Origin: Dactylellina haptotyla | Lineage: Eukaryota; Ascomycota; Orbiliomycetes; Orbiliales; Orbiliaceae | Direction of reading: 5' to 3' | Assembly (NCBI GenBank): GCA_031310005.1 | Contig: CM062385.1 | Coordinates: 2,046,001 to 2,110,000 of the forward strand | DNA length: 64,000 nucleotides | Shown here: piece by piece, positions 2,613-27,109 of the stretch | Layout of the letters: every line of letters starts with the position of its first letter | Numbering within the stretch: the first letter of the stretch is position 1 | Notes under the pieces: model-generated | Databases searched by the model: none | What the model was told of the DNA's origin: nothing | What the model saw: only the letters and a program-made list of their open reading frames with translations | Made by a program: the position numbers and the translations under genes

Positions 2613-3725
2613 TCACCTTGATGCTTCTGAGAGAATTCTATCTCGCATCTTCTTAAGTGTCTGGCTTGCCTTTATTAAGGTATAAAAAGCCAGCTCCCCA
2701 TTTCCACATTCATCCTCTCCGCGACGCCTTGCGATATCAAGATACGCCGCTCTTTCAGACGAAATTTCTCCAATAGGAGCTACGGTGCCAGCGTACTTCA
2801 GCAATATAGTATTGAGAATGAGTCTGCAAGTGCGACCGTTGCCATCTAAAAATGGGTGAATGTTGACAAATTCACCACAGGCGTCCGCTGCAATGAAGAA
2901 TGGATCCAACTTTTGGTCCCTCTCTGCCGTTTGTATTTTATCGTTGAGATCATTGACAAATCTCCTCATTGCACGGCCGACGAACTTTGGGTTCACAAAA
3001 TTGTTGCTGCCGGCCGAAACGTGGACATACCGGTACACTCCACCATATTGTTGGTGGGGAGTGGCAGGTCCCTTTTCGTGTAAAGCGTCGACGCCGTGCA
3101 CGAGGATCTTGTGCGTAGCGCAGATCAACTCTTCGGTGAAAAACTCGTCGTTGTTGATGATCCTGTCAATCATATACATGAAAGCGCCAGCGTGGTTTAT
3201 AACTTCACGGCGATCGCGAATCTCCGTTGACGGGAGACTTCCACCGGAATTCTGTGCTAATTCTTCGAGTCTCTCTTGGTACTGAGGGGATCTAGGCGGA
3301 ATTTTTGAAGGGTGTGAACCATGAAAAACGACTCGGCATAGCGCGATAGTTTCGTCGAGCCCAAGACCAGCTCGTTCGATAAAATTCGAGCCAAATACTA
3401 CCATATTCATTTGCTCGACAAGTACTTGTTCTAGTTTGTCCATAAGTGGCGATTGATGTACGATATCTCGGATCGAGTTTATAAGGGTAGCTGCGTCCTC
3501 GAAAACTTCAACTGCCGCTGCTTCTTTCGTAGATGCTTTTGTATAGTCAACGACAGTGGGCTGGATTCTGAGTGTGAAGTCTATTGGAATCGGAGATGAA
3601 TCTGTATTCTTGCGAAGGGTTGACCATGTTGGCCAAGCTGGTGTATTACTTCGGCTCTGAGTCCAAGCCCGTAGGATCGAGGGCCCCTTTGCCAATGAAG
3701 ATGGTGAGGGGGCTTCGTCTGCCAT
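2613..3725 (-). CDS. Fic-domain protein (probable AMPylase-type enzyme)
   Basis: Single-exon, 370 codons from an ATG at 3725; an in-frame non-ATG extension of two codons was not used. The Fic core motif HPFxDGNGRxxR is complete at residues 290-301 (His290, Asp294, Arg298, Arg301), so the nucleotide-transfer site looks intact. A segment at residues 112-120, GSNFIERAG, sits where class II Fic proteins carry the inhibitory (S/T)xxxE(G/N) helix. Ser113 and Glu117 are present but the next residue is Arg instead of Gly/Asn. About 60 N-terminal residues are Ser/Pro-rich and unlike the family. Fic enzymes usually move AMP from ATP to a hydroxyl side chain of a target protein; the target here is unknown. 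There is no signal peptide or membrane segment, so it is probably cytosolic or nuclear. It is convergent with the carboxypeptidase gene, with no obvious functional link. Confidence 0.85.
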   Translation of the reverse strand: MADEAPSPSSLAKGPSILRAWTQSRSNTPAWPTWSTLRKNTDSSPIPIDFTLRIQPTVVDYTKASTKEAAAVEVFEDAATLINSIRDIVHQSPLMDKLEQVLVEQMNMVVFGSNFIERAGLGLDETIALCRVVFHGSHPSKIPPRSPQYQERLEELAQNSGGSLPSTEIRDRREVINHAGAFMYMIDRIINNDEFFTEELICATHKILVHGVDALHEKGPATPHQQYGGVYRYVHVSAGSNNFVNPKFVGRAMRRFVNDLNDKIQTAERDQKLDPFFIAADACGEFVNIHPFLDGNGRTCRLILNTILLKYAGTVAPIGEISSERAAYLDIARRRGEDECGNGELAFYTLIKASQTLKKMRDRILSEASR

Positions 3726-5250
3726 TCTCAACCTTTGAATTGGTTAAAATCCCGTTTAACGTTTTAGATGATGATATAGTCATAAGGTACTTGTAGTTAC
3801 AGTAGGATACTTACAGAGAGAGAGAAACAAAAAAAGGGTACAAATGTTTAAGATGAAGGCCCTGTTTTACACATGAGCGAGGATCATCCTCAAGTGAAGA
3901 TCTTTTGTTCTTCGAAAATGCATGAGTCTTATAATTTTCCCAGGATCTTCATAGATGATGCGAACCTTTTTGATTTTCACATTAGCACCAGGTGTTGATC
4001 TGCTAGCCTACCAAGATAAAACGGTCATTCAGATGCCGTACTAGTCCCGCAAAGTACGTAAATACCGTAAAGGAGGTCGAAAGAAAGTAAACCCACAATA
4101 CTCTTACATCATCACTAAATTGAAACATTTCTCACGCAAGCGAGATCCTCGTGCGCATGGTATATATGGGTTGGCAAGATCTTAAGATTCTATTTGCTGA
4201 GACTTTTAGCTGTTGATGACTAGTGTAACAATACGATTTGAACACACCGGTCATACAGAAGGCTGATTGTGCGAAGTAATTGGGCAATCCACCCAGAAGT
4301 CCTGAGGTCAGATTTTCGTGTCACCTGAAGCTGGCCATAAGTGTTCTTTCCAGTTTAGAATCGGGATTTTCTTTAAAAAAAAAAGCCTTTCAAAGAGAAA
4401 TATCTGGTATTACTTAGAGAACATATAAAGTATCAAGTACAGCAATGTAGTCGCTAAAATGAAGTTTCAAAAATTATATCCTTATCATGAGCGCTTATGT
4501 CTTCGGCGGTATACCAGTAATCTAGGTTGACACCACAGAAGTTAAGCAACGCTTGAAACAGTATAGTCAGTGGGTGTCTAGACGACAACGAAAATGATAA
4601 CCATTTATTCTATTGTGAATAACCACCAATTAATTACTTTCTTTAGCGAATACAAGGAATTAACAACAATTTTGTATAGGGGTTTTCGAGTCGCGATTAA
4701 ACCCAGCTGAGGACCTAACCCTTCCTTGGTTGAAAGGAAGACCCGGTTAAAGCTCTATCGCTGCTGTACTCCAAGGCGCTGGACCAGCAAATATCAGGCA
4801 ATTTTTCTATGGCCTTCCTTATCAGAATCCCACGGCCCTATGAAGAAACATACCGGGTGATCGAACTCGGGGGTTGAGTTGATTAATTCCTAGCCCGCAT
4901 GAAGGCGCATACGGGGAATATATGCTAATCCAGCATCGTGCTCCGTTTACCAAAAAAGAAAAACTACCAGAGTTATAGCGGAGATATTTCCTGATAGTGA
5001 TAGTGTCCTGTCACCCACCCAGCTGGATAGCGTTGACAGAATGCCTTGGGCTAGCTCAATTCTTTCTAGCCTCGTTGAAACTAACTTTCAAAGTCAATCT
5101 GCCTGTGCTTAATGCGGGGTATCAGTAGTCAATACTATCTAAGGATTTCATATTTGACAGATCCGCAATCGTCGATATGCAGTTGTCGATGCATGCTCTG
5201 GGCTAAATAGACAACCCTTATTATTTCATTAAAGAGCACTATCGAAGAGC
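3726..5250. other. Gene-poor intergenic region
   Basis: No reading frame of convincing length or composition lies here. The stretch is mildly AT-rich. It contains the 5S-like remnant listed separately. The segment at about 4690-4970 looks like scrambled repeat DNA, but I could not match it to a family or resolve ends. Confidence 0.4.
4500..4592 (+). pseudogene. Degenerate 5S rRNA-like fragment
   Basis: The stretch holds an ordered set of 5S-like pieces: a GCGG-ATACCA start near 4506-4516, CACAGAAGTTAAGCAACGC near 4533-4551, which resembles the internal box A region of 5S rRNA, and AGTCAGTGGGTG near 4565-4576, resembling the loop E/box C region. The spacing between pieces is shorter than in a full 5S gene, and the 3' third is not recognisable. 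It is therefore more likely a relic, or part of a 5S-derived SINE, than a working gene. No clear T-run terminator follows. Confidence 0.33.
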
Positions 5251-6627: not shown

Positions 6628-9600
6628 ATGGCACCTGGAGTAGTTATGGATTCCTACGTTAACGGTCATTCGCATAGCGAGATCGAGGGTGAGTATATAA
6701 TTCTCTTATTCTGGGAATTAATAAGTACGTCCAACTAAGTTTCCTTGTGGCTTCTTATAGATGAAAAGGTCGTTCTTCCTAATGGTCATTCGAAACCGTC
6801 ATTTGATCAAGACCGCACCGTTATCAAATCGAATGGTTTTAGTTCCCCCCTAGATCGATACAATGAAAGCGCCTCGGAGACCAGCGGCCGGGTGGCTTTA
6901 AGTTTCAAACCAATGGCATACGAGCCTTGCATCGAATACGCCAACGGATCTAGATCCTCCGAGAGTATTGAAGTATCTATCAAACGTGTTATCGAAGAAA
7001 CCCTTACCGTTGTTCATGGATGCAAGAAGCAGCTTGGATCGCAACGTGATAACCCATTCGCTGGAGCTATCACATTGCAAGGCCTAACTGACTTCATCCA
7101 TGCTCAACGTTTACGGGATATGCCCGATAAGGGAAGCACATGGGATAAGATTCTTCGGTGGGCATTGATATACGCGAGGAGAATTGACGAGTTTGCTACC
7201 ACTATCGAACCTTACTATAGAATTAGTGCAACTATGGCAAGAGATATTTGGAGCTGCTGTCGTTCGCTTCTTCAGGTACGTCTTCGATTGGTCGACAGCC
7301 GTGGGTCGATAGTTGTGTTGTTTGTTTGCTGACTTCAGAATCTCGCAATAGTTGGGATGTAGGGACTTGCACGTAATGGGCATGCTTAAGTCTGTGTTCG
7401 AGCAGTTCTACCGTATCGGAGAGAGCCTCGACAGCCTCAGAGAGCACCGAAGACTCTTCGGAACCTCGAAGATGATGCAAAAGATTATCGCGCAGATGTT
7501 CTCTGAAATCGTCAAATTGACCATCCAAACCACTACTTACTACAAGCGACAGAACACAAGTACGAGTTTCACCTCTTCGATCACTTATGATTTCGCTTTG
7601 CTAACAGGAGGTTGCCAGTCACATACCAGTGTATTGAGGACTACACTATATCCTTCACCGATGTGATCACTTCTTTGGACTTCCACCGAAAGTCATTTGA
7701 AAGTGAGGTTTGGTCGTGTTGTCTCGAGGCATCGCAGGAGATCAAAGGTAAGAGTTGCCCTCACAGCTATAATCACAAGCATATTCTAATACAATTTTCC
7801 TTTTAGAGCACTCGGTCTCCGTCGATACTATTCAAACATGGCTACTCACGTCCCACAAGGAGTTCACTATCGCCACCGAAGCTGAAGGCACCTGCACCTG
7901 GTTTGATAAGCATCTCATGGACTTTGAAGAAGCAAATGATGAAATCTTTGCTATCTATGGCCGAGCTGGTATCGGCAAGTCCGTTCTCGCGAAATGGATA
8001 ATGAGTCGCCTTACCACTCACCAAAAGGGAATCACCCTCTTCTACTCAATGGGTATGCTCTGATCGCTTCAATCAATAGATATCAAGACAACAGACTGAC
8101 CCAATAAAATATAGATGGGAATAGCAAATCATCTACCTCGAGCCTAAACTTGGTTCGAAGCCTCGTCTCTCAATTGCTTGGACGCAGAATCGGTGACGTC
8201 AAGCTCTACAAGCATCTTCTAGATGTATACGAGAGTGCTATTGCATACAGCAGCGGAGATTTGCTCGAGAAGCAACTGTGGCAGATATTTGAAAAGGCCG
8301 CAAAGGCCACTTGGCAATTGACCATAATCATTGATGGTTTGGATCACATTGAGGGCGGCTTCCCTGCTGCCGATGCCATTACTTCCCTCATTTCAAATAT
8401 TGCCAGTGAGAATGGAGAGAACACTCTGAAGTGTATCCTACTCTGCAAACAGTTTAAGGAACGATTCTCCTGCAGCGTTAAAACTTATAAGATCACGGAA
8501 GATGATGTTTGCGAGGACATTGACATCTATGTTGACCTAACAATCAGCTCTTGGTCCAAGTTCTCCAGTCTAACTAGAGAATCCAAGCGTCAGATCATCA
8601 AGACCGTCATTACTCAGTCAAAGGGATCCTTCACTTGGGCTTCTCTAACTCTCCAACTTATCAAGAGAGAGAAAACTCTTGACGGCATCAATGTCGTTCT
8701 CGGAAAGCCGGCGAGAGATATCAATGAGTTGACTGAAAGAGTCCTCGTCTCTCTAGACTGGAAGGATAGTGACACAAGAAGAATTCTCTCTTGGCTACTC
8801 TTTTCCAAGCAAGAGCTAACCGTGGCCGCCCTAAAGGAACTGCTTGAGTTGGATATCAGCAAGAAACCATGTCGCAATACAAGATTCACTGGCATCCATG
8901 ATGACCTCAGCCGGGCCTGTGGGTCAGTCGTCATAATTGACAATGGTATGGTTAGATTCAGTTCTCCTACTATTAGAGCGCGTCTTCTCGAGATCGTACG
9001 GTCCAATAAATTCATCACCGTTGAAGACTGCCAGAAGGAAATTACATTCTGCTGCTGGGGCTATGTTTCAGTTTGCGAGTTTGATTCTGGTGTTCGGTCT
9101 GTTTCTCAGGATATTCTTTCTGCTGAATACCTTCAGTCACTTTTCCAACACCACCATTTGTTGGAGTATTCTACAAAGCACTGGGTCAAGCATTACCGCC
9201 GTTCTGTTCTCTACAGCAATGGGACGATTACTACAGACGACCACTGCAAGGCGCTCTTCCCTCGATCAAGCTTCTTCTGCCAAATTGAGCGCACCCTTTG
9301 GGTTGACCGCAAGGTTGAAGAGAAGCATATTAAGAAATATTTCGATTTCTCAGTCGAGATCAGGAGGAAGCTTGTTGGAAAGTCACATTCTTGCGTCATC
9401 CAGAGCGTTCTCAACTTGGCCTACGTTTTCGAGACTTTCACTAAGTCGACTAAGTATATCGATCTCTACCACGAGTGCTGGGAACTTTCTCGCGCATGCT
9501 ACGGAGACCAACACGTTATCGTCATGGGATGTGCCACCAAGTACATCGAGATTATTGAGAAATTCGAGGAGAAGACCTACGGAGAAGAAGTATACAAGTG

Positions 9601-12600
9601 GACTTATGAGTATTGCAAGCATGTCCATGGCGAGTCTCACGAAGAGACAATCAAATATGCCATTTGTTTGGGACAGCTCTATATTCGAAAGGAGAAGAAA
9701 GAAGTCGCCGTAACAATCTTTCGGGACATCTGGCATGTTTGCTCCGGAAAACTCGGTTTCGAGCATTCCACAACTGTGACAGTTTGTGAGCATTTGGTGC
9801 AAGTTCTTGAAGAAACCGAACAGTTTACCGAGATCATCACCATTCGCAAGAAGTGCACATCAGTATTTTCTAGCGAGCTGAAGATTTGGGATATCAAACG
9901 AGTCACAAACCAAATTAAACTTGCCTTGACATATGAGCTTCAGGGAGAGTTCGAACAGTCGGAAGAAGTCTTGATCACTGTCATTCGAGGTATTACCGAG
10001 GGCTTCAAGTCTTGCGAGCACCATGAGCATATTCACATTCATATCGCTAGAATCGAAGCTACCCTTGAAATGTCTCGTTTCTACAGACGACACCACAAAC
10101 ATCACGAAGCCGAGAGTCTTCTCATCGAGTTATGGAAAGAGACCATGGTTCATGTTACTGGATTGGAGAGATACTCCGAAACCTTTATCAAAATGATCAT
10201 TTCCGTGGCTGAGGAGATGGAAGTCCTGGAGATGACAACAGTCATGTCTGAGGTATACACTTGCGTCTGGACCTACTTCAAGAGTGCGACCACGACTGTC
10301 CGTTGTAGTGAAATTGCGATCCTTGTTGGCCGCCGCCTCGCTACGATCTGCGAGCACCATCATCACGATGTGGTTCGTGAGGAGACCATCCTTCGAGAAA
10401 CTTTCGAGGTTACCACCACGACTACAACAACGGTCGAGACAGTCATTGAAACCACCACTACACTTGCTTCTTTCTACGAGAGGCATGAACAGTGGACTGA
10501 GGTTGTCAACGTCTGCACTAAGACCCTCATATCTGTCTGGGCAGAGATTCTCAATCTCAAGGTTCAAGAGATCTGTTATCTTCCCAAAACATGCCATACC
10601 GAAGCTATCCATCTTGCATGGCGCCTAGCCTTGGCATTCGAGAGCTCGAGAGAAATTGTCAAGGCAGAAACCATCTACATCAATATTCTCACTGCCTGCC
10701 GAAAGACCCTTCGGATCGTTGACGTTGAGTGCTTCGAATCTCTCAAGAAGATTACTTGCTTCTACGAAACTCACGGAAAGTTCGAAAAGGCGATCAAGGT
10801 CTACGTCGAGTTCTTCGATTCATGCCACACTAAGCTGGGAATCACGCATCATCATTCCCTTGAGGTAGCCTACGAGCTAGCCAAACTCTACGTCAGACAA
10901 GGTAACACAAGATCGGCCGAAAAGATCTACTTGCAGATCTGGAAGGGCTGCCTCGTGGGATCTCACCATTGCCATCAGGGCTCCGTTGAAGCAGGATGGC
11001 TTCTGTGTGAGATTTATGAAAGGGAGCATCGCCATGAGGAAGCCATTAAGATCTACCAGATACTTTGGGGTTCCATTTGCGATGTGCACGTTGAAGTTAC
11101 TATCGAAGAAACTAGAATGCTCACCCTTTACAAGCGATTCAAAAGCATTCTCACAATCGAGTCCAAATTTGACCTCCTCTACGATATTACAGTTGTTTTC
11201 GAGAAGTACTGCAAGAAGACTCATGGCGAGACACATATCCTGACCATTGAAGCTATGCTTGAGCTTGCGACTGTTATCGAACGTACGGAGACTCGAAGGA
11301 CAGAAGCAGTAACTATCTATGAGAAGATCATCGAGATTTCCACCAATGTTACGGTGACCGAAGAAGTCAAGAAGACAATTATTACTACCAAGAAGCATCT
11401 TGCAAGCTGCTACTCACATAGTAGCACAACGGTTGTCAAAGCTGAAGCTACATACGTTGAGATTTGGACTTCCTGCAAGCACACTCACGGCGTTTCACAC
11501 ACGTCAACGCTCGAGATTCTCGAAGAACTTGTTGTATTCCATATGAAGAACAAGAGTATCAAGAAAGCCATTGAACTTCTAGAAACGACAATTATTGAAA
11601 TTTTCAATACCGAGAGGGAGTCTGAGAGACTATTCCACTGCGGCCTGACTCTTGCTAAGTGCTATAGGCTCATTGGCTCCATTGAGGCTGGTTCCAAGTT
11701 CTCGAAGGAGATTCACAAATTTCTCTTCACTTACAAGCCAGGGAAATGTGGTAAAGACTCTCCGTTCAGCAAATGGACTGTTCGTCAAATAAACGGTTCA
11801 ATTGTTGATCGCAAGTACCATATCTTCCTCTATGCCTTCGAGGAAGTCCTACAACGCGAAGAAGCCTTGCGTAGCACCCACTTGTATGCCTATATCTTGC
11901 AGAACCTTCTGACAGAGACAGAGTTATACGAGTCATGGACAAAGATCGTTACTATCGACGTCAAATGCGAGCAGAAGCTTCTATACGGCTGCCGTCTCAT
12001 TGCTCACCTGAAGCAAACCCACCGACACGAGGAGTCACTTCATATCAGGGAACAACTCTGGACAATCTTCCACAGAGAGTACACTCATAAGCATGTCGAA
12101 GTCGAAATCACAATCATGAAGGAGCTTTTCGAGAAATGTATTATCGAAACCATCTCCACGGATCGCGAGATCGTTATTGTCGACATCGCGATCACCCAAA
12201 TTGAAGAATACGTGAGGCGGCGAGAGTTTACTTGTGTCTCGACTCTTTCGACCTGGACCCACACTCACATTAAAGTCACACACAACACATCAGCCAGTCT
12301 CAAACTGGTCAATATCCTCACTTCGTCAACAGTGACAAGATTTTGCAAGGAAGAGACCATTATAAAGAAAATCACCGAGATCACCGAGACTATCATTATC
12401 GATAGTGTCAGCGAGACAAGTACGACTACCGTCTCATGGCATCAGCGATCAATTGTTGAGGTGAACAAGGTTCTCGTCCTGCTTGGTAGCAAGAAGAACT
12501 ATAGCCGCATGCTCACGATCTTGGAAGAGCTGTGGGAGAACCGTACAACTCAAAGCTTATGGACCCCTAGCGTTGTCTCCCTTATCGGCCGCCGCCTTGT

Positions 12601-13300
12601 TGAGACCTACTTTGTCCTTGATGAAAAGACTAAGGCTATCAAGCTGTGCGAGAGAATATGCTATAACTACGAACGTGTCTGGGGGTTATTGAATCCTTCC
12701 ACCTTGGAGTTCTACGATTTCTTGTCCGAGCTATATATCACGTCAAAGAAGTACGAGAAGGCAATCGCGATCCATGAGAGGATCTTGCAACAAGCTATCG
12801 GTGACAAGAAGTCGCTGCCCGAAGGCTCAAACATGGGAGAAATTGTCTACCGCCAAACTGAGTTGCTTCAAGCTGCTGTCGGTCGCACATATGCCGGAAA
12901 ACAGGTTCCGGTCGAAGAAAAGAAGCACCGAGAAACCTTGCTACAGCGTATCAAGTCGTTTTTCGGTGACGACTTTGAGCATCAGAAGATGCTGGAAGGT
13001 CTAAAGGATGAAAAGGCTTTCGCGAAGGGTCACGGCGAGACATTTGGATGTTGGAAAGCACCAGAGAAATGGGAGATCAGTGGATTCGAGGACGACGACG
13101 AGATGCCGCGCGGACTTGATAGCCCGGATGTGCATGTTTCGTACGCTGATGGAACTTGTGGTGGACCAGGAAAGAAGGGCGTTAACGGTAATGGGTATTT
13201 GAGCCCCGATATCATGAAGAGAGGTACTTCCTACTACGGCAAAGACCGAAAATCTGTTCTTTTCAGCACCCGCAGTTTTGAGACTTTATTCCGAGCATAA
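6628..13300 (+). CDS. NLR-like NACHT/STAND NTPase with long C-terminal TPR array
   Basis: Exons 6628-6688, 6761-7275, 7352-7559, 7619-7747, 7807-8052 and 8115-13300 join to 2114 codons; the introns are 59-76 bases. Residues 1-100 are low complexity. Residues about 100-290 are helical and resemble the helical effector or Goodbye/DUF7708-like domains found at the head of fungal STAND proteins, which is a family-level impression. Walker A GRAGIGKS is at residues 356-363 and a Walker B-type IIIDGLDH at about 457-464, giving a NACHT-class P-loop domain. From about residue 815 to 1980 there are degenerate 42-44-residue helical repeats of the TPR_10/TPR_12 kind, unusually rich in Thr, Glu, His and Ile, including a near-pure Thr run around 10400-10450. 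The last 100 residues are charged and disordered-looking. By family knowledge such proteins oligomerise on ligand sensing by the repeats and trigger the N-terminal domain. No ligand is suggested. The repeats are divergent from each other and not freshly homogenised. Confidence 0.85.
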
Positions 13301-14454
13301 ACCGGCCACTCTTTTGTCTTGCGTTTTGATGATGTTGATGTTGCCATAGTCGTTCGTGTTGATGCTGCATTGTTGTGTTTTAAAAAATTTCAAAAGAGAC
13401 TTCGATTGGAGCGAATACGGGCTTCTGTTTCCTGCTCTCTGACTTAAATTTCCTTTGTACAAAAATCATGCGTCTTGTGCTGCTGTTTTGCATTGTTTCG
13501 TGTATGTACCTAGCTAATCCGTATTTTCTGCGTTTGCACTTAAGATTTTGAGAATTCTCGGCGTACCGACGTGATTCAACGTGTTAGACCTCAAACAAAT
13601 GCATCTGAAAATGCCCGATCGAGAAGCTCAACAACAACGACCTGGAACGACACAAGAACAAGGGATTTCGCTTCACTTTTCACGGTAGACCAGTGTATAA
13701 GTAATCAATCGACTACCGCAATTGTGAAGAAAACGGACCCAATGAAATATAAAGGGAAAGAGAACAGAAGGATACAAAACGAAGCTAAAAAAGGAATGGT
13801 GGGAGCTTGGATACGTAATTTCTGTGGGTTGTATTATGAATGGGAAACGGACCGGTGTTTTTGCGAATGTGGTTGTTTCATCTGTGCTTGCTGCGGGTAG
13901 TTTTACATTAATGATAATGATAATTAAAATGATTTAATGAATTTGTAATCAGCTCGTGAGTTCGTGCGTGCGTGTTACGTAGGTCGAGGGACCCCCGCCA
14001 GAGTTATACGCGTATACCGCGCCAAAAGGGACGACAATGTTATGCATGTGTTTGGTGGGGCATGGCCTGGTCCGCTAGTAAATGATGGCCTCCTTTCATT
14101 TTCATTATGGCATTGCTAGCTAACACTTCAAACCCCCCAAAAAACCCTCCAAACCCCTCCGGAAAAGACCCAACCCTCCCAAAAAAAAAATCTTTGAGGA
14201 GAAACTCGGTACGAAAAAAAAAACAATAAAATTAAAAAGTGGTTAGCAAGACTGAGAGCTCAACTAGTTATGAATATTCAAAGGCAAACAAAGTGGCTCC
14301 AGTTACTACCAATTCGGTACTTGATGGTTTGGGTGTGCGTTCGTAAAATGAGTTTTTGTGCCCGCCAAATTTGTCCGCTGGCTGGCGGTGCCACATCGCA
14401 AATTGTGCAGTTTCTTAGGGTGTTCGGGTAGTCTGGGATAGCTATATAAATTAT
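13301..14454. other. Intergenic region between two gene blocks
   Basis: This holds the 3' flank of the NACHT gene and the 3' flank of the minus-strand gene that ends at 14455. A 109-codon plus-strand frame at 13571-13900 ends in a Cys cluster, but its composition is not convincing and I do not call it a gene. A C/A-rich homopolymer patch lies at about 14125-14230. Confidence 0.4.
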
Positions 14455-15387
14455 TTACTCTACTTCAATTAGGTTCTCAAACCATTCATCCAAGCTGTCA
14501 TTAAAATCCAAAACGGTGTCCAAAGTTTCTTCGCTAGTTTCTCCGGCTGCGAAGCTCTTCCCTTCCTTGACAGAGAAGTTTTTGACTTCGTAGGCATTGA
14601 CATCCTTTCGCAATGCTTTACGGAAGCCCTGACCTTTTTTACGGCTCGGCTGCCGCCCGTACTTCACCACAACGTACTTTGTTGCAAATATCTTGTTCCC
14701 AACATGTTGGGCCGAGCCTTGATCCTCTCTATGCTTGTGGTGGATGTGCTGTAATTTGGCATCAAGCGGTGGTACTGGTACGCCCGAGGCGACCACAGCG
14801 GCTTCGCTGACCGGGATATTTATGGTAGCATCCGAAGCTGACTCATAAGTGGAGCTCGAATCGACTCGGGCATTTTTCGCAACATGCACTCCGACGATCC
14901 AATAAAGTTTGCCATTCTTTGATCGTTGCAGGAGCGTTCTGAGGTAGTCGCCCAATACAACTTTATTATCGTCGGCACTGTTGGCTGAGGTTGTTGGCGC
15001 TGAGGATGGGTTTTCTGGGTCGGGGCCGGGCTCGAAGAGAAGTTTCTTGAGAGCTGCAAAGGCATCGAGGTGCTGCTCGAGTTCGTATGTCTGAATTTCG
15101 TCAGAAGCAATATGGTAGTTTGCGTCCTTGGATTGCGAGATATCCATGTTGATAATATGCGCCACCTTCGCCCGCAGTTCCTCCGACTCGATCCCCTTCA
15201 CGACACGGTCAAACCCGATTTGCACATCAGGCGGTCTGTAGAAGTCTTTTAAAGTGGGCCCCAGGCTTTGTGCGCGACCTGGTCGGTATCCATCGAGCGG
15301 GTTGAGTGGATCTGAAACTATCCGACCCAACAGGATTCTAGGATCATTTTCAAGAATTGGAGAGTCCAAAACAACCCACAAAGGCAT
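14455..15387 (-). CDS. Candidate gasdermin-like pore-forming protein beside a CHAT protease
   Basis: Single-exon, 310 codons from the ATG at 15387; the upstream in-frame extension begins at TTG and was rejected. There is no signal peptide and no classic transmembrane helix. The sequence alternates hydrophobic and polar residues as in beta-sheet proteins, for example MPLWVVLDS at 1-9, LLGRIV at 19-24, LYWIVGVHVA at 161-170 and FATKYVVVKYG at 234-244. Residues 120-142 form a Pro/Ser-rich loop, 245-261 a Lys/Arg cluster, and the last 29 residues a strongly acidic tail. Size, beta-rich make-up, basic patch plus removable acidic C-terminus, and divergent placement next to a CHAT-NTPase gene all match what is described for fungal gasdermins, which are cut near the C-terminus by a neighbouring protease and then permeabilise membranes. 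The family call is inference: I cannot align it to RCD-1 or HET-Q1. The alternative is an unrelated substrate of the CHAT protein. Confidence 0.55.
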   Translation of the reverse strand: MPLWVVLDSPILENDPRILLGRIVSDPLNPLDGYRPGRAQSLGPTLKDFYRPPDVQIGFDRVVKGIESEELRAKVAHIINMDISQSKDANYHIASDEIQTYELEQHLDAFAALKKLLFEPGPDPENPSSAPTTSANSADDNKVVLGDYLRTLLQRSKNGKLYWIVGVHVAKNARVDSSSTYESASDATINIPVSEAAVVASGVPVPPLDAKLQHIHHKHREDQGSAQHVGNKIFATKYVVVKYGRQPSRKKGQGFRKALRKDVNAYEVKNFSVKEGKSFAAGETSEETLDTVLDFNDSLDEWFENLIEVE

Positions 15388-15735
15388 CTTGTCGCTGTCG
15401 AAGAGTTTTGAGTTTAAGAATTGTAACAAGGTAGGAGTAAATCGAAGAGAATAAGGTTTCCGGCAGATTCGTATATTATTAGTTGATTTTGCGAGCCTTC
15501 AGGGACGCTTAGAGTTAATACTGGTAGAAGATAGGTTTTTAAATATATCCGCCGAACGGCTTTAAGAATTCGTATTGCTCATACTGGGCCAAGTCGTCGT
15601 TCAGCCGCAAATGAGAATAAAGTCAGCCTTCTGCGGCTTGGCGTAGCGGTTCCGATTCATCTAGAGTCGGGGCCGGTTGCACCACATAATTTATAGCCTC
15701 GCCGATTGTAATTCAACCTGCTCGCGATACTCTGA
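15388..15735. promoter_or_regulatory. Shared divergent promoter of the gasdermin-like/CHAT pair
   Basis: Only 348 bases separate the two start codons, so both genes must draw on this stretch. An AT-rich patch near 15470-15480 and another near 15538-15550 could serve as core elements for the two sides. No further operator or repeat is evident. Confidence 0.5.
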
Positions 15736-18700
15736 ATGAGTATAAGCAACCACGCTATCTCAAACATGAGTACCTTCTTTCTCGATATATCCGGCCAACC
15801 AGCGAGAGGATCCTGGGAGATAGACCTGTCACTACCTGGTTTTAATCCTGAGAAGAGCACAACGATTGCGTTCACGCCGCCTCAAGACTTAGCTGCCGCA
15901 GATTTAAGCTGGTACATGAATCGTTTCCATCAAGAGCCGTATGAACTGCTGCGGGCAAGCAACGTTGAAAACTATATTAGAAACTTCGGCCAGATTCTGC
16001 ACAAATCATTGTTAGGCTGCAATTTCGTCCGAAACAACATACCTACAGATGCTAAGAAGGTTTGTATCGTTATTAGGAATATAAACGCCAACGGGAGTTC
16101 TCTGTTCGCACTTCCGTGGGAACTGCTGGAGTTGGCTTTACTCCCGAATCAACCCTCGGTCCAAGTTGTTCGTGAAGTGGCAGCGAACCCTCTCTTGCGT
16201 CTGGTAGATGCCTCTGTGTCGTGGAAACACGCCCGGATCCTCATAGTTGTGGCGCGATGTCATAACCGCGACAATAACAGCAGGGATATTGACAGCCAGC
16301 TCATAACCCGGCCGCTCTTCGAACTCCTAGCGGGTGCGGAGGGCGATGCTTCACGCCAGGTTCACATCGATATCGCGACACCGGGGACTTTCGAGGCGTT
16401 CAAGTCATATCTTGCACATGCCAAAAAAGCCAAACAGCCGTACTCGGTTGTGCATTTTGACCTCCACGGCTTGATCAGGAAGTCTTCAGAAGGTAACGCG
16501 AAGGCCGCACTCGAGTTTCTGGGTGGTTATGATGAGGGAGGACAGCTCTACGCCGACTTGCGTACTGCGCCGGAAGTCGCAGGCGTCCTGCGTTCCCACG
16601 GGGTTAAACTTGTGACGCTCAACGCGTGCGAATCTGCCAACCCGGAGGCAAACTTCGCGGAAGAGTTGGTTCGCGATGGGATTCCGTTTGTGGTGGCCAG
16701 CGCTTGGAAGCTGCATCGGTCAGCAGCATTGCTGTTTATGAAGAGATTTTATGAGGCTCTGTTGATCGAGGTAGTCGATATTGCGACAGCGTTAGTGAAC
16801 GCCAGGGCATTCCTTCGCCAGGATGCCGAAAGAGATTGTTGGTTTGAGGAGGCAAGAGAGGTCCACGACTGGTTCTCGATGGTAATGTATTGCCGGGAGG
16901 GCTTGTCGTTGTGGGACCCCAGCACAGGCGCCGACACTGCCAGTCGTCCCAATGCAAACATCCCGCCGCCTGCCCGGCTAACTGAACAGCCGCATGCCCG
17001 GCTAACGGAACAGCCGGTAGACCGGCTCACGGTCCGGAGATCTTTGGAGCTTCTCCGGCTGGAAACGGCTCTCGCCTTCCTCAAACAAGATCCTGCCGTC
17101 GAGCCTGTGGGCCTTGTTCTCTGGGGCATGGCCGGGTGCGGCAAGACCGCTTTCATTCGCGATGCCTGTTCCTGGTGGAGTGCAACGCACTTTGCGCAAC
17201 AGACGCTGTACATCCCGAACGACTCGCAATCCTGGCGGCGACTTGACGTCCTGAGGACCGTCTGGGGTTTGGACGCGGGTGCCGACTTTGGCTCGGATCT
17301 TGAGACGTTTGCCTTTCTCGAATCTAGCTTTCGTATTATTGTCATCGAAATCGACACTGTCGAGCAGCTGGTCGAGGAATGGGAAGACTTCCTCACAGCC
17401 TACCAGAGCCGGGATGTGTCCAAACCTCGTAGCCTCTTCGTTTTTGTGACGGCTGACGGCGATGCCAGCCAGCTTGGTAGGTACATGGTGATCCGAATCA
17501 TATCCGCTGCGGAATTGGTCTGACAATAATATTTACGCATTTTCCCAGATTCCGAGGTGTTGTTCAACTTCCAACTATCGAACATGCACCCGGTCGAAGC
17601 GTACCAGCTGGCCGTCCAAGTCGCACGGCAAACCGGGTTGCCATCGCTGCGTCCACCTATAGAACTAAAAACGAAGGAGGAGCTCGAAATCTTACTGGTG
17701 TTGCTGGATTGTAACCCTCTTGCCATTCGGACAGTGATCCCCTGGCTGGCGAACCAAGACACCGCGAATCCGTGCCAGAGATTGGCCGAACAACTCCTGT
17801 GCGGCTTCGCCGGGTCTTCTTTTGAACCGGAGACGGGAAGCAACCTCTCTACTGTAGAAGTCGACTTCCTAAACGGTGAAAACCTCGCGGCGTTACTATT
17901 TGCTCCCTTCGTTGGTCATATTCCCGAGAATGTAGTCTTGTTTCTTACATTCGCTTGCGGGTTAGACGTCGATACCTTGAATAAATTACACCCGGACCTC
18001 ACTCTCCTCAAACCGCAAGTACGCGAACTCTTTGGGGGCCTAGAAAGCCGTGGTTTGCCATTCAAAGATCGTGTTTCAACTTTGCAAAACCTCGGCGCTG
18101 TCTTTCTGGACTGTGGTCTAGGAAGATTTCTCTCCGAGACCGTTGCAACCTGGCGCAAACTTGGATTGTTATACAATTGTCACCTTACAGGGGATTCGGA
18201 CGAACTATCCCCTCTATTTTCTCTGCAGGCCATACATCCACTTTTAACCATCCTCTTACGCAAACATGCAAGTGGCTATATGCTATCCACACCTTCCTCC
18301 TCTCTCTTGGAGTGGACACATAGGCCAATGAAGCTGTTCCTTCAAACCCTCCTCGTCGTCCTGGGCGCAACAGCTAGTGGTGACGGCGACCCCTATTGGA
18401 AGAATTTACCTCGGATCCGTCACACTTCGAACCCATACGCTGAAAGCTACACAAAAGCATATTTTCACAACCTGGTAGCCTGCGTCTCCGGCCCGTTCGT
18501 CAACTCCTCGCAAGGGCCCGAATGGTATATTGACGCAGCTTGCTTTGGTATCCTACATTCCGATACTCAATGGGTCCTTCCAATGTTAGATTGGCTGGGT
18601 TCATATGCTTCGCGGTGCGGAGGCGCCACCGAGGACGGGTTTTCCGTTGTTTTCCAAAGGGCAGTTACCAAAAGGTGGGAAGGAATAGTGACCGGTTTCA

Positions 18701-20484
18701 CGGCTTGCTTTGTAGTCTCCGTCTGGGGCTACGGGTCCCATACGGGAAACATGATATTCTCCGTACGTCGCGCCAAGCACCTGGAAAAATTAATGCAGGA
18801 GCGGGCCAGGCGCGATTGGAGCTCGACACATGAAGCTGTGGAAGTATTGGATGGTGTGTTGGCCTACACGGCTGATGACTGTCATGGTAGGGTGATCCTC
18901 GGACCGTATTGGTCCGAAGTATTCCAGCGGGCGACTAAGATAGTTATTTTATCGTTGATGTATACGGCTCAGACTGCAGTGAAGCGAGGAGAATTGACAA
19001 AGGCTCGGATGCACATAGAAGCGATGAAAACCATGGTGGATCAGATGGATTTGTCGCAGGAGACATATTACTTTAACGTCAGGACAAGGTTTCTTGATCT
19101 TATGGCTACCACAGGATTGGACTTGCAAACAGGACCGGAGAGTATCCTCCGTAGTCTGCTGGATTATATCGATAGTTCGCCTCTTGAGCTAATACCTGTC
19201 AACCCTCTGATTCCTGGAAACTCGCCGGAGAAGGTCAAGGCTATGAACAGGTACTTGGTCGGTAGTTGGCTTAGGACTATGAGCAAGTCAGCAGCTTTGG
19301 ACGAGGTTCTGGATGAAGATGAGAAATTTGTATCGGACTTGATGTTCCAAATTGGGTATTCACAGGAAATCGAGCAGGGTTTGAGGGGTATCCTCCAAGG
19401 CGTGGAGTCGGTACAGGCAGAAACTCTTGGCGGACTTGTGAACAAGTTGACAAAGCATATGTACCGGGCACTTGAATTGATAGAAGATGCTAAGGATACT
19501 ACTCGCTCTAAGGATCAATCAGAACGGGCTCGGGCTGCTCTCGAGATATTTTCTCTCTTCTCCAACGATCGGCCGAACGACGTGAAAAACAAAGTTCAAC
19601 CACAACTGCAAGAAGCTATGGAGAGCCGACCCATAAATTGGACGGATATAACTCGTCTACGCACCTTGCTCGCCATGGTGATGGCGCAGAAACAAGATTG
19701 GAGAGCAACACAGGTACATCTGCGAAAGGCCTCGGAAGCTCTATCAAATCTTTTGGCAGAAACGACTAGCGAGGTTCTACAGGACTATCAAGTAAGCCTT
19801 GAGTTAATGATTGCTCTGTCTTCTATAAGTATCAGCCTGGAAACTGCGGGCAAACACTTCCGAAATTGTAGAAAGCTCTCCGAAGGGCTGGGATCATGGA
19901 TGCCGCGTTGTTGCCACTACGTCGCTGTCGTTCATCTAGTTTTGCTAGGCCTCTACAAAGATGAGAAAGAGGAAATAGATCTCTGTTTTGAGTGTTTAAG
20001 CCTCTTATACGCACCAGATATGATCGCTAGGAGGCAAAAATCCAAGGAAGGAATCATTTGCTTTCTAGATAAAGAGTTTAGTGAGATGATAATGCCATTC
20101 GGATTCGAGTGGCCGATTCAGGTCTATCAATTCATGCGGCAATTCCTCTCTTTATACGATAACAACAGAGAAGATCCACATGTGCAGGATCTTATAATCG
20201 CAGGCGGTTTCTCTTCATTTGGTGGTCAATTTATACAGAGGATTCAAAATTTTTACTTGTCGTTCCAAGCCGGGGGCGAAAGCGAAATGATCTTGCGGTG
20301 CCAATACGTAATCTCGAGACTTTTGCCAATGACTACCAGGGGCGAAGAGGAGGTGGGTCGACGTATGGAGGATTTAGCATTTGCTTTCCCAACTTCCTTG
20401 GACAGAGGGGCGGTGGACTCTCTTGCCTATGAAACAGAGCTGGCTCTATTTGACAGAGAATGTTTTTTTAGCTCGTCTCGGTGA
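15736..20484 (+). CDS. NLR-like protein: CHAT (caspase-like) protease, P-loop NTPase, helical C-terminus
   Basis: Exons 15736-17476 and 17549-20484 (72-base intron, G/AT split codon) join to 1558 codons. A CHAT peptidase domain spans about residues 90-390. The catalytic His is His244 in VVHFDLHG and the catalytic Cys is Cys298 in LNACES, both intact. A Pro-rich linker at residues 411-434 contains three 8-residue repeats. A P-loop domain follows with Walker A GMAGCGKT at 464-471 and a hydrophobic beta strand ending in Asp at about 541 as a possible Walker B. Residues about 600-1558 are all helical, without clear TPR consensus. CHAT is a clan CD caspase-like protease; in fungi, CHAT-bearing NLR-type proteins are reported as neighbours and activators of gasdermins. 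The likely job is ligand- or stress-triggered cleavage of the divergent neighbour, which is inference from synteny. The gene ends 97 bases before a copia element and is not disrupted by it. Confidence 0.85.
16966..17037 (+). repeat. Three 24-base tandem units in the CHAT-NTPase linker
   Basis: Units at 16966-16989, 16990-17013 and 17014-17037 encode PPARLTEQ, PHARLTEQ and PVDRLTVR. They lie in frame between the protease and the P-loop domain. The first two are nearly identical in DNA and the third is diverged. Confidence 0.8.
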
Positions 20485-22209: not shown

Positions 22210-25200
22210 TTTGGTTTGTGGGTGTTTTTCGCGCTGGCGCGCATTAATATATTTATTTATATATTATTTGTATTTATTATTATGAATGAAAGATCTTTTG
22301 TGCCTTCAAGGAAGCAGTCCCATCTTGGAAATATGGAATTTATGAGGGTCTCTTGGTAGTGCTTTCGTCATTACGTCAGCTACTAAATGCTCAGAGCCAC
22401 AGTGTTCCAATGTGAAGGTACGTTGTAGCACTTGTTCACGTATCCAGAAGTATTTAACGTCGTAGTGTTTAGAGCGCTGTTGGTTCCACCGGTAGTGTTT
22501 ATAGTGATAGCGGCAGTGTTATCCATATACATAACCGTAGGCGGTAGAGGAAGGGATATCTTCGGTCCCATCTTCATGAATACCGTTGATAGGAGATTTC
22601 TCCAAATCCTTCGTCTCCAGCGTGGTTAGAGGCAATAACTTCCGCTTCAGTGGAAGACTTCGCAATCGTCCTCTGTAGCTTACTGCTCCAGGCTAACGCA
22701 CTACCTCCCAGTAGGAACACGTAACCAGAAGTTGACTTTCGTGCAATATCTTCCGGTCCGTAGGTTTGTGCCCAATCGGCGTCACTGTACGCTTCAAGAC
22801 TTAGTGGGAGCTGTTCTTCCGTGGTGCCATTGCGATTATAATGCAGAGCCTGCTTGTACGTGCCCCCCAGATACTGGTATGCCCATATCATTGCTTTCCA
22901 GTGTTCTTCCGTGGGCGCACTAGCGTATTGGCCTAATTTTGCAACCGTATAGGCAAGATCTGGTCTGCTACCTTGCGCTGCATACATCAGAGACCCTAGC
23001 ATACTACGATACGTATGTGCATCCTCTGTATTTAATTTGGGCCAGCTGTCATCCTTAGAGAGTCGTACCCCTGGGTCCATAGGAACATGCCTGGTCTTTC
23101 GATTCAGCATATCGAAGCGTTCAAGAATCCCTTTACAATATTGTTCTTGGTCAATTTGTAGAGATCTGGTGACTCGGTTACGCTGTATCCGTAGTCCCAG
23201 GAACTGCTTTACTTCCCCTAGGTCGGTAATTGGGTACTTCTCCATAAGAGCTACTTTCGCCCTTTGAATCATAGAGAGATCTGGTGATGCTATCTTAAAG
23301 TCATCGACGTACGTAGCAATTGTTATATTTTCTGAGATGTAGAGGCAGGTATCGGCGGTGCTTCTCTCCATACGGAATGGGAAGTCTGCGCTCAACAGCG
23401 TAGAATTCAATTCTTCATTCCAGAGATGAGGCGCCTGCTTCAGACCGTACAGGGACTTAAGCAGTAATAGTGCTTCTATCCCCTTTGGTACCTTACAACC
23501 TTCAGGCAGCGCAATTACTGCCCTCTCTGACAGCGGTAGCGTTGCATGTAGAAAGGCAGTTTTGACGTCAAGCTGGTGAACGTGTAGATCTTGAACGGCA
23601 GCCACTAATAGCAGCGTCCGTATTGTACGTAAATTTACAACTGGCGCGTACGTCTCAGTGTAATGAACGCCATATCTCTGCTCATAACCCTTAACAACTA
23701 ATCTTGCCTTATATAAAATCCCAGAGTCTGTGCGCTTCCGTGTGAACACCCATCTTGATTTCATAGGCTTGATAGCTTTCGGTACCGCTCTAAGTTCAGT
23801 CCAGGTATTGTTCAAGGATAGCGCTTTCAGTTCTCTTTCTACGGCGGCAGTCCACTGAATATGTTCATTTGAAGACATAGCCTCCTGATAGGATTGTGGC
23901 AGATTGAGGTCAATGGCAGCATCCTCTGCAGTTACCGGCGCGGCGGGCAATTCCTCTTCAGACAGTAGAGTACCTGTTGCCCGGTAGGCAACTGCAGCGC
24001 GAAATTTACGTGCAGAGTCGATGACTGCAAGTCTCTTACTACGTCGTAGAGCGCTCCGCTCGTCTACGGGTCTGGCAGCAGCTTGCTCATTTTCTTCCTC
24101 TACAGCTTCATCTTGGGTAATTTGAGGCCCTCTATAATTATAGAGAAGCTTGGCTGATTTGGTGTACCTTGCGCATTGCCTGCTGGTAGCAAGGAACCAA
24201 TATAATTCCGGTCTTTGTCATACAGCTGCCTCATACGTAGGTTCTGTACCGTTTCAGTATCCTTTGGATCTGGCAGTACAGGAGCTAGAGGTGCCGTGCC
24301 CGTATAGGGTCTCTTCCAATAGTTCTTATCGGTAAAGCAGCTATCGAAGTCTTCCCTTGCAGGGGTAGAGCTGTCAACGAAAATGGCATCTCTAACGATA
24401 GAGACGACCCGCTTAGACAGGTTCCAAACCCGGTACTGCTTCATTGTAGCTGTGTAACCTAAGAAGATTCCCTCCACGCTCTGTGCGCACTGAGCAGCTT
24501 CTTTCGCTGTTCCTTTGGGATAGTGACGTAGACCAGGCACCCAAATGGGTGCATCCTGTTATAATCGACAGGCTGTTTGTAAAATAATTCATACGGAGAC
24601 GTAGTGGCAACCTGCCCGTTCGTCTGTGTATACAGTAACCTGTTGCTTATTGCACAGGCTGCTGACATCGCTTCTGGCCAGAAGACCTCTGGTAACCCCG
24701 CTTCAATCAACATGGTTGTGGCCAGCTCACGAAGTATCCTTATTGCCCTCTCAGCAGTACCATTTTGTTCATGTGCGTATGGGGCGGATGTCTCCATTTC
24801 GATCCCATATTTTCACAGAACTCCTGTATGTCGAGGCGCAGGAACTCCTTGGCATTGTCCATCCGTACCCCATAACTCTACTACCAGGACCCAGCTTGCC
24901 CTCCATCATTGTAACGAATTGTATGAAGCGCACACGGTACTCTGAGCGTTCGCTGAAGAACCGTACCCATCTCATACGGGTAGCTTCGTCTACAATTATA
25001 AGCGCATACTTGGCCTCTGCGTGCAGTTTATTCGTAGGGTCGGCATGTCGTTTATGTAATGAAGCGGTTTTGAATGGACCCACTACATCTATATGTATAC
25101 GCTCCAGCGGGCGTAGCTTCTTGGTGGAAGCTGGTCCATAATTGCGATGTATTGTACTCTTGCCTAATGCGCATGGCTCACAGAGGGTTGTGCTTTCCCT

Positions 25201-27109
25201 GAGGGGGCACGGGAACCCCAGCTTGCTTCATAACTCTTTTCACTGTCTTCCAGCCTGCATGGCCCAGCTTCCTGTGCCAACGTAGCAAGTCGGTGATTTC
25301 AGTGGGCAGTTCATTTACAGCTGTATTACTTCGTGCGGCCATCACCGTGGACTTATTTACGAATGTATCTTGGTCCTCGTTCGCCTCTGGCGGTACAATA
25401 CAGCTGTTAAGCATGTAGAGACCTACAGCAGGATCGAATATGGGCTCTGAGATCAGGAAATCATCCTTTTCGATAGCGGTCCACTTCGGTTTGAAGGTTA
25501 CTGAAATACCCCTCTCGGTCAGTCTCCTGACAGAGCAGAGATTCAGTGCCATACCAGGCGCATAGAGTACGTCGTGTACGACTAGATAGCAAGTGGGGTC
25601 TCGATTTTGATTTGCCATACCTGTAGCTAGCACAATCGAATCATCCCCCAACTTGATTTCTCTATTTCTGTCGAATGAGAAGTAGCTACCGGGGATGAAT
25701 AGCGCTATATCCTTAGAGATCCAGTCGCTTGCCCCGGAGTCTATATACCATTCACTGTAAACGGTAGGGGAATTCGTTCTTTTAGTGATATTGGTTTTGT
25801 ATGCATAAGTTACGTCACGGTGTAGAGGGACTGCAGTGTAAGCGGTAACAGTGGTCTTTTTCTTCCTATTGGGATTAAGATGGGGATAAAGGTCCCAGCA
25901 GCGATCTTCTGTATGTCCGGTCTTACCGCAGTTACCGCACAGGAGGTGACTTCCTGGTTTCTCATGTTTATGAGGCGGTACAGGGTTACTGGTGCCGGCG
26001 CTTGGTGCAGCCTCGCTGAAGCGTGTCCTCTTGCCACTATTTTGCGTATTTTGCGCATTTTGCGCGCCATTACTGTCTCTGTCGTAGTCCACCGTGCGCT
26101 TCTGCTTGCGTTTATTTCTACCTTTGAACGTGGCAGCTGCCGCCGTAGCTGCAGCTGGAGTCTGTGTATCTTTTGGAGTTGATGTCTTTTCTCTTGGTTT
26201 GGCTGTGACCCTATGGGAGTCAATTGCGTTCTTCTCTATAAGAAGATTCCTCAACATGAAATCCTGGAAGTTCTTAATGTTCCATTCGGCGTCTTTGGGC
26301 AATACGGTAGCTGTAAAGAACCGTGTAAACGCTATAATTGGTTCGTTTCAGAGGCATGGAGGACCCCATAGCAGCATTGAGAAGCACAGTTTCATCAAAG
26401 GAACCTTCGGTAATAGCACGCCGTTCCTTCTGTATGCCTGCAGACTCTTCAAACAGCTTCTGTACGGCTGTGTAGGGACTGTTGTTCTTCAGGTTGACAA
26501 CCAGGGAGAACAACCGAGTCTCCAATACCGTAATAGACGTACGACTGTCCGGGCGGAATCGAGTCTTGATGGTTTCCATCATTTCCGCGGGGGTTGTTAA
26601 GCCTGTAAGGGCAGAGCGTATGTCGTCGTGCACTGACTGCTGTATATGCCATTCGGTGGTAGATTTGGCGATGTCGTATTTTGCCTTGGAGGCAGGGCAG
26701 CAAGATCTGCAGCCTCTGCAGACAGGGTGGCAGCTACTGCCGTTGCTGCAGTTGGCGGGGTAACCTCCAACGCGGTCGGAGGTTCTACCGGAGATTCCTT
26801 TACGAAATCGTGAAGAACGTAGCCTGCCTTCAACTGTACGCGTAGATAGAGCGTGAGCTGCTCGAGCCAGCTTTGGTAATTACTACCATTCGCTGCAAGC
26901 CTATGCCTGTTGGGAAGGTTGCTGCCATTCTGCCTGTGTAGATGTAGGGAACCGGATTCGGGTAATAGTATGTAATGTAATATACGTAGCGGTAAAAGAA
27001 CCCTTGTAGATCAGGGATTCCACAACCGTTAGAGGCGTAGACTTCGAGATTCAGTAAATACCAATAGGTAGAGGCCTTCCAGAGATATCAGGAAGTGGTG
27101 CTGATAACG

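Follow-up and report, generated by a model that had tools for sequence, protein, structure and literature searches.

What does the head-to-head gene pair at positions 14455-20484 of this 64,000-nucleotide stretch of Dactylellina haptotyla DNA (the window) encode, and do its two products work together? The source genome comprises 39.8 Mb in 11 contigs, and its introns together with its NLR, HET and CHAT genes point to a filamentous fungus. The earlier note had proposed a gasdermin-like gene next to a CHAT-NTPase gene, and its coordinates were reproduced from the sequence: the small gene (14455-15387, minus strand) and the CHAT-NTPase gene (15736-20484, plus strand) are divergent and separated by a gap of 348 bases (15388-15735). 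We infer that the locus is a two-gene unit of regulated cell death, in which the 1558-aa protein would be an NLR-like receptor and its 310-aa partner most likely a gasdermin. The coordinates of all features are collected in Table 1.

Table 1. Features of the divergent pair, of its surroundings and of the compared CHAT loci
Feature	Position	Strand	Remarks
Neighbouring NLR, NPHP3-type NTPase and TPR repeats	6739..13300	+	exons not worked out, start approximate
Small gene, 310 aa, candidate fungal gasdermin, intronless	14455..15387	-	open-frame shuffle test
Acidic tail, residues 263-310, supposed inhibitory piece	14458..14601	-	5.46 kDa, pI 4.05
Lys/Arg cluster, residues 245-261	14605..14655	-	from sequence
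Motif 2, residues 161-238	14674..14907	-	two hydrophobic strand-like stretches, LYWIVGV ... IFATKY
Motif 1, residues 21-36	15280..15327	-	GRIVSDPLNPLDGYRP, form common to the contig C10 gene
Upstream region common to the divergent pair	15388..15735		348 bases
CHAT-NTPase exon 1	15736..17476	+	
CHAT domain	16192..16887	+	residues 153-384, PF12770, 4.6e-18
Codon, catalytic His244	16465..16467	+	
Codon, catalytic Cys298	16627..16629	+	invariant in 15 sequences
P-loop GMAGCGKT	17125..17148	+	residues 464-471
Predicted intron, 72 nt	17477..17548	+	branch site CTGAC at 17520
CHAT-NTPase exon 2	17549..20484	+	remainder of NTPase and long C-terminal region, no recognised repeats
Second-family CHAT neighbour, contig C6	L018:4119-5015	-	
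Second-family CHAT neighbour, contig C6	L029:4124-5234	+	
Predicted 593-aa protein, contig C10	L011:152-2035	-	PNP_UDP_1, then motif-bearing domain

The CHAT gene consists of two open frames, the first of which stops at 17521-17523, while the second reaches 20484. Eight donor/acceptor pairs would keep the frame, and the most canonical-looking of them, GTAGGT...CTGAC...TTTCCCAG (17477-17548), is the likely intron judging from the sequence. Splicing with this 72-nt intron yields a stop-free product of 1558 aa. The profile search with the CHAT model that the earlier note had suggested gave a clear result, PF12770 scoring 66.1 bits against a curated Pfam cut-off of 24 and covering profile positions 66-286 of 289. 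The catalytic residues and the P-loop at 464-471 named in that note are all present, His244 within HFDLHG, Cys298 within LNACES and the P-loop as GMAGCGKT. By itself, the protein matched NACHT and AAA models solely below cut-off, and its comparison with PDB sequences returned no relevant chain. Its C-terminal frame of 975 aa matched no family model, and no repeat family such as TPR, WD40, ANK or LRR was recognised in it. The presence of a CHAT domain and a P-loop NTPase in the 1558-aa protein is well supported by these sequence features. Followed by a C-terminal frame that matches no family, they give the layout of an effector protease, a STAND NTPase and then a long region that we take to be a putative sensor.

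Exon 1 found three matches among 5.8 billion proteins (7999 candidates scored) and no further match in its own genome at E ≤ 1. The best relative, 725 aa in length and carrying CHAT, NACHT and NB-ARC domains, aligned at E 1.6e-33 with 26% identity and 88% query coverage. When used as the scan query, it led to 15 bacterial loci (L039-L053), Chloroflexi and Cyanobacteria included. We aligned 15 sequences: the query itself, the proteins P0001 to P0003, and 11 bacterial loci out of the 15; L049, which has stop codons in the stretch chosen, L044, L048 and L052 were left out. In this alignment Cys298 is invariant, and conservation is at least 90% at His244, G464, G467, G469, K470 and T471. The profile built from it reached NB-ARC/NLR structures in the PDB (best 2.7e-5, next NRC2a and NLRP4F) and, weakly, CHAT-domain proteins (0.006 and 0.013); bacterial relatives dominate this profile. 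The CHAT domain, the conserved catalytic residues and P-loop, and the NB-ARC-matching profile thus support the NLR layout with a protease effector that had been proposed for the larger protein. The bacterial CHAT-NACHT/NB-ARC proteins (P0001 and L039-L053) likewise carry CHAT followed by a STAND NTPase in a single chain, and P0001 and the 11 loci used share 24-29% identity in the alignment. Unlike the locus studied here, inspection of the ORFs of the 15 bacterial loci revealed no evident conserved small partner gene near the CHAT-NTPases.

The small gene is a single 310-codon frame from ATG, lying inside an open stretch of 347 codons. None of 1000 dinucleotide shuffles of 13301-15735 reached this length, the longest shuffled frame being 253 codons, so the small gene is not a chance ORF. 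The codon-usage score did not discriminate, with 0.031 for the small-gene frame, 0.020 for the opposite-strand frame and 0.055 for one non-coding control frame. The predicted protein has a mass of 34.4 kDa, and its residues 1-262 have a pI of 8.6. The earlier note had described a Lys/Arg cluster at 245-261 and an acidic tail of about 5 kDa; both were found in the sequence, the tail spanning residues 263-310 (5,460 Da, pI 4.05) with 13 D/E compared with 3 K/R. No strongly hydrophobic segment is present, the best 19-residue mean being 1.28. Motif 2 presumably resembles a gasdermin strand pair. A search of the small gene against its own genome gave one match, and this match adjoins a CHAT gene. 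Of the outcomes that the earlier note had named as refuting its reading, neither a predicted fold unrelated to gasdermins nor, within this genome, a small gene widespread without a protease neighbour was encountered.

Searches for the family of the small protein were negative throughout. No family above cut-off was obtained from Pfam, PADLOC or NCBIfam and no gasdermin from PDB sequences, and neither a set of 5.8 billion proteins, at E ≤ 0.001 or E ≤ 10, nor viral contigs contained a homologue. Matches to Mito_fiss_reg, HBS1-like, NDH subunit, superantigen-like and C2-like entries had E values of 0.16 to 7.8 and were taken as chance. Profile searches with gasdermin models had been proposed in the earlier note; at E ≤ 1 the model PF04598 matched nothing anywhere in the genome. 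These gasdermin negatives are weak because no known fungal gasdermin served as positive control, and the searches may be blind to such proteins. The single-sequence AlphaFold model, with a pLDDT of 30.5, was uninformative about the fold. The interpretation in the earlier note was thus supported in part, namely for the protease receptor. The gasdermin identity is putative: an adjacent CHAT gene, the size and an acidic tail of about 5 kDa agree with it indirectly, whereas no gasdermin model or PDB chain was matched. The small protein should not be classed as a gasdermin before its fold is known, yet it is located where one would be expected.

The genome contains at least 13 CHAT matches, and for the 12 loci outside the window we examined surroundings of 20 kb each. 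One of these CHAT genes, at C10:962076, has a frame of 826 codons whose final third encodes the CHAT domain, and it is adjoined by a convergent gene, the stop codons of the two lying 98 bases apart. The second half of this convergent gene reads IGQLVLNPLVPNLNNYIP ... FYFVFGLLYLQNAQ ... IFGIEL and then has an acidic end; the small protein has the counterpart series LGRIVSDPLNPLDGYRP ... LYWIVGVHVAKNAR ... IFATKY and an acidic end, in the same order. Patterns of both motifs, composed after both proteins had been seen, matched 2 of 583 ORFs of at least 100 aa and 2 of 3995 ORFs of at least 40 aa in the 13 CHAT neighbourhoods, solely the window and C10 genes. In shuffled ORFs, motif 2 was matched 0.07 times and motif 1 0 times per set of 583, and neither pattern was matched in 262 ORFs of the bacterial loci.

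Alignment of the small protein with the C10 domain did not establish whole-length homology, whether local or global. Depending on the matrix, 188 and 438 of 2000 shuffles gave local alignments as good, and the pair ranked 20 and 42 of 140 ORFs. For global alignments, likewise not significant, 161, 444 and 851 of 2000 shuffles did as well, and the ranks were 3, 11 and 28 of 78. Neither the C10 candidate alone nor profiles of both candidates reached a gasdermin in the PDB. At the DNA level, the motif 1 pattern had three hits genome-wide compared with five in the reversed control, two of the three being the CHAT-linked genes, and a looser pattern had 14 compared with 15. As these counts are at chance level, motif 1 was rejected as the mark of a larger family in the genome. 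Beyond the CHAT-linked genes we read five of the hits, namely the C5 hit of both patterns and four of the looser one (the other seven looser-pattern hits fall outside this reading); the open frames around them measure 19 to 92 aa in four cases and 284 aa in the fifth, and none has a full motif 1 or motif 2. From the sequence motifs, we consider it likely but unproven that the small protein is related to the C10 domain.

Upstream of its gasdermin-like part, the C10 gene encodes a PNP_UDP_1 domain (6.5e-10). A likely intron of 81 nt (GTAAGT donor, CTAAT branch site, CAG) would fuse these parts into a product of 593 aa; a 102-nt alternative that uses this donor likewise stays in frame and would give 586 aa. 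The PNP_UDP_1/gasdermin-like fusion is accordingly a predicted one. PNP_UDP is described in PMC12881547 and PMC10197012 as an NLR effector domain that hydrolyses nucleotides in immune cell death. We met no mention of a PNP_UDP-gasdermin fusion in the literature passages surveyed, nor a title or abstract opening that pointed to one, within a survey that excluded most subscription papers.

We compared the locus with known fungal systems. Pairs of a gasdermin and a CHAT-NLR are already described in reviews as a fungal cell-suicide switch. According to PMC10197012, fungal gasdermins cluster with CHAT genes, 19% of them lying near CHAT, and dozens of the CHAT partners are NLR or NLR-like; PMC9815663 places NLRs with an N-terminal CHAT domain beside gasdermin genes. 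PMC12881547 describes a TPR-bearing CHAT protease of Podospora anserina that activates the adjacent gasdermin, and reports that HET-Q1 is shortened at its C-terminus by about 5 kDa, with F238 as the likely site. The arrangement here is the same as in these clusters, with a CHAT gene adjoining a small gene whose product has a C-terminal piece of about 5 kDa, and we suppose an activation similar to that of HET-Q1. The clusters differ in containing gasdermins, whereas the small gene here is a candidate only, and in the C-terminal part of our CHAT protein no TPR was found, unlike in the P. anserina protease.

Other comparisons are more distant. HET-Q2 is a subtilisin-like serine protease, whereas the protease here is a CHAT protein, and HET-Q1 and HET-Q2 of P. 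anserina are idiomorphs at one locus, whereas here both genes lie side by side. RCD-1 of Neurospora crassa is a fungal gasdermin pore, and such a pore is supposed for the small protein; according to PMC11760362, RCD-1-1 and RCD-1-2 (257 and 244 aa) have no inhibitory piece and act as a heteromer of two alleles, unlike the mechanism supposed here. hetB of Aspergillus fumigatus, as presented in PMC11138114, is a large CHAT protein in fungal incompatibility, and a large CHAT protein is also found here; hetB differs in having two idiomorphic alleles, the other encoding a 149-residue protein, and that paper leaves gasdermin involvement undecided.

Our preferred reading, held with moderate confidence, is that the locus pairs a fungal gasdermin with a CHAT receptor: once triggered, the receptor would remove the tail, and the freed domain would form pores. 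The features counted for this reading are the size, the 5.46-kDa acidic tail, the absence of a hydrophobic segment and the protease neighbour; the CHAT gene lies 348 bases from the small gene, and about 80% of known fungal gasdermin cases cluster with proteases. The receptor features of the larger protein and the two motifs common to the window and C10 genes also speak for it, while the lack of any gasdermin match or homologue, the non-significant alignments and the chance-level counts of motif 1 in DNA form speak against it. In the proposed mechanism, the acidic 5-kDa tail would keep the 310-aa candidate gasdermin inactive. Once the sensor region met its trigger, which may be a non-self signal following hyphal fusion, the NTPase would rearrange and the CHAT domain would cleave the small protein at a site that separates the basic cluster from the acidic tail. 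The freed N-terminal part would then assemble into a membrane pore, leading to cell death. The CHAT and NTPase domains, the gene arrangement and the tail are seen in the sequence; the gasdermin fold, inhibition by the tail and its cleavage, the pore, and both the sensor role and its trigger are proposed by analogy with studied fungal pairs.

Alternatively, the small protein could be the substrate or partner of the CHAT receptor without being a gasdermin, for example an undescribed effector or a guarded protein that is activated or destroyed by cleavage, a reading that we hold to be possible but rather unlikely. It would agree with the missing gasdermin similarity and with the situation on contig C6, where two further CHAT genes, separated by about 24 kb, are both flanked divergently by a gene from a second, unnamed family. 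These two neighbours had no Pfam match but were mutually similar in pairwise BLASTP (4.9e-5 and 2.9e-4), and by phmmer they ranked top among 3995 ORFs, though at E 0.02 to 0.17; a genome search gave no further copies of the family, and this search also missed each member from the other. CHAT partners therefore need not be gasdermins. Against this reading, the size, the basic cluster and the 5-kDa acidic tail of the small protein match the reported fungal gasdermin layout, and PMC10197012 puts 19% of fungal gasdermins near CHAT genes. A chance neighbourhood, with the CHAT-NTPase acting alone beside an unrelated orphan, is improbable given their head-to-head placement and the second motif-sharing gene adjoining another CHAT gene, although the 15 bacterial CHAT-NTPase loci have no evident conserved small partner and other, seemingly unrelated immune-type genes also lie in the window.

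Were the small protein a gasdermin, the locus would amount to a pyroptosis-like pathway contracted to two genes, a receptor-protease and a pore former. It would then offer a compact system in which to look for the firing signal of fungal protease receptors, named as a major open question in PMC12881547. Since the class of gasdermin/CHAT pairs is already described, the locus adds a further, very divergent example to it, together with two side leads, the PNP_UDP fusion and the second type of CHAT partner, which may be newer. If true, the fusion would join two cell-death effectors in one protein. We also entertain, tentatively and as an unlikely generalisation, that in this fungus CHAT proteases are interchangeable triggers for several kinds of executioner, acting on a free gasdermin in the window, on a gasdermin-like domain behind PNP_UDP on C10 and on the unrelated family on C6. 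At a further pair of loci on contig C1, about 6 kb separates a match to subtilase (Peptidase_S8) from one to CHAT (L026 and L027; C1:6474029 and C1:6480160), and no ORF of at least 40 aa in these 20 kb carried either motif.

Finally, we considered the surroundings of the pair. The neighbouring NLR (6739-13300) has a P-loop, GRAGIGKS, an NPHP3_N match at 1.5e-6 and many TPR repeats, and it ends 1.15 kb from the stop codon of the small gene. Because clusters of two and three genes are mentioned in PMC12881547, this NLR may belong to the cluster, as a possible third member beside the small gene and the CHAT gene. Other genes of immune or incompatibility type in the window encode a protein with a HET-domain match slightly below cut-off (22.2 compared with 22.5 bits; 37508-39382, minus strand), a PNP_UDP protein (40965-43136, minus strand) and a Fic protein (2616-3743, minus strand). 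At about 22577-27010, on the minus strand, ORFs resemble by eye the remains of a Copia-type retrotransposon.
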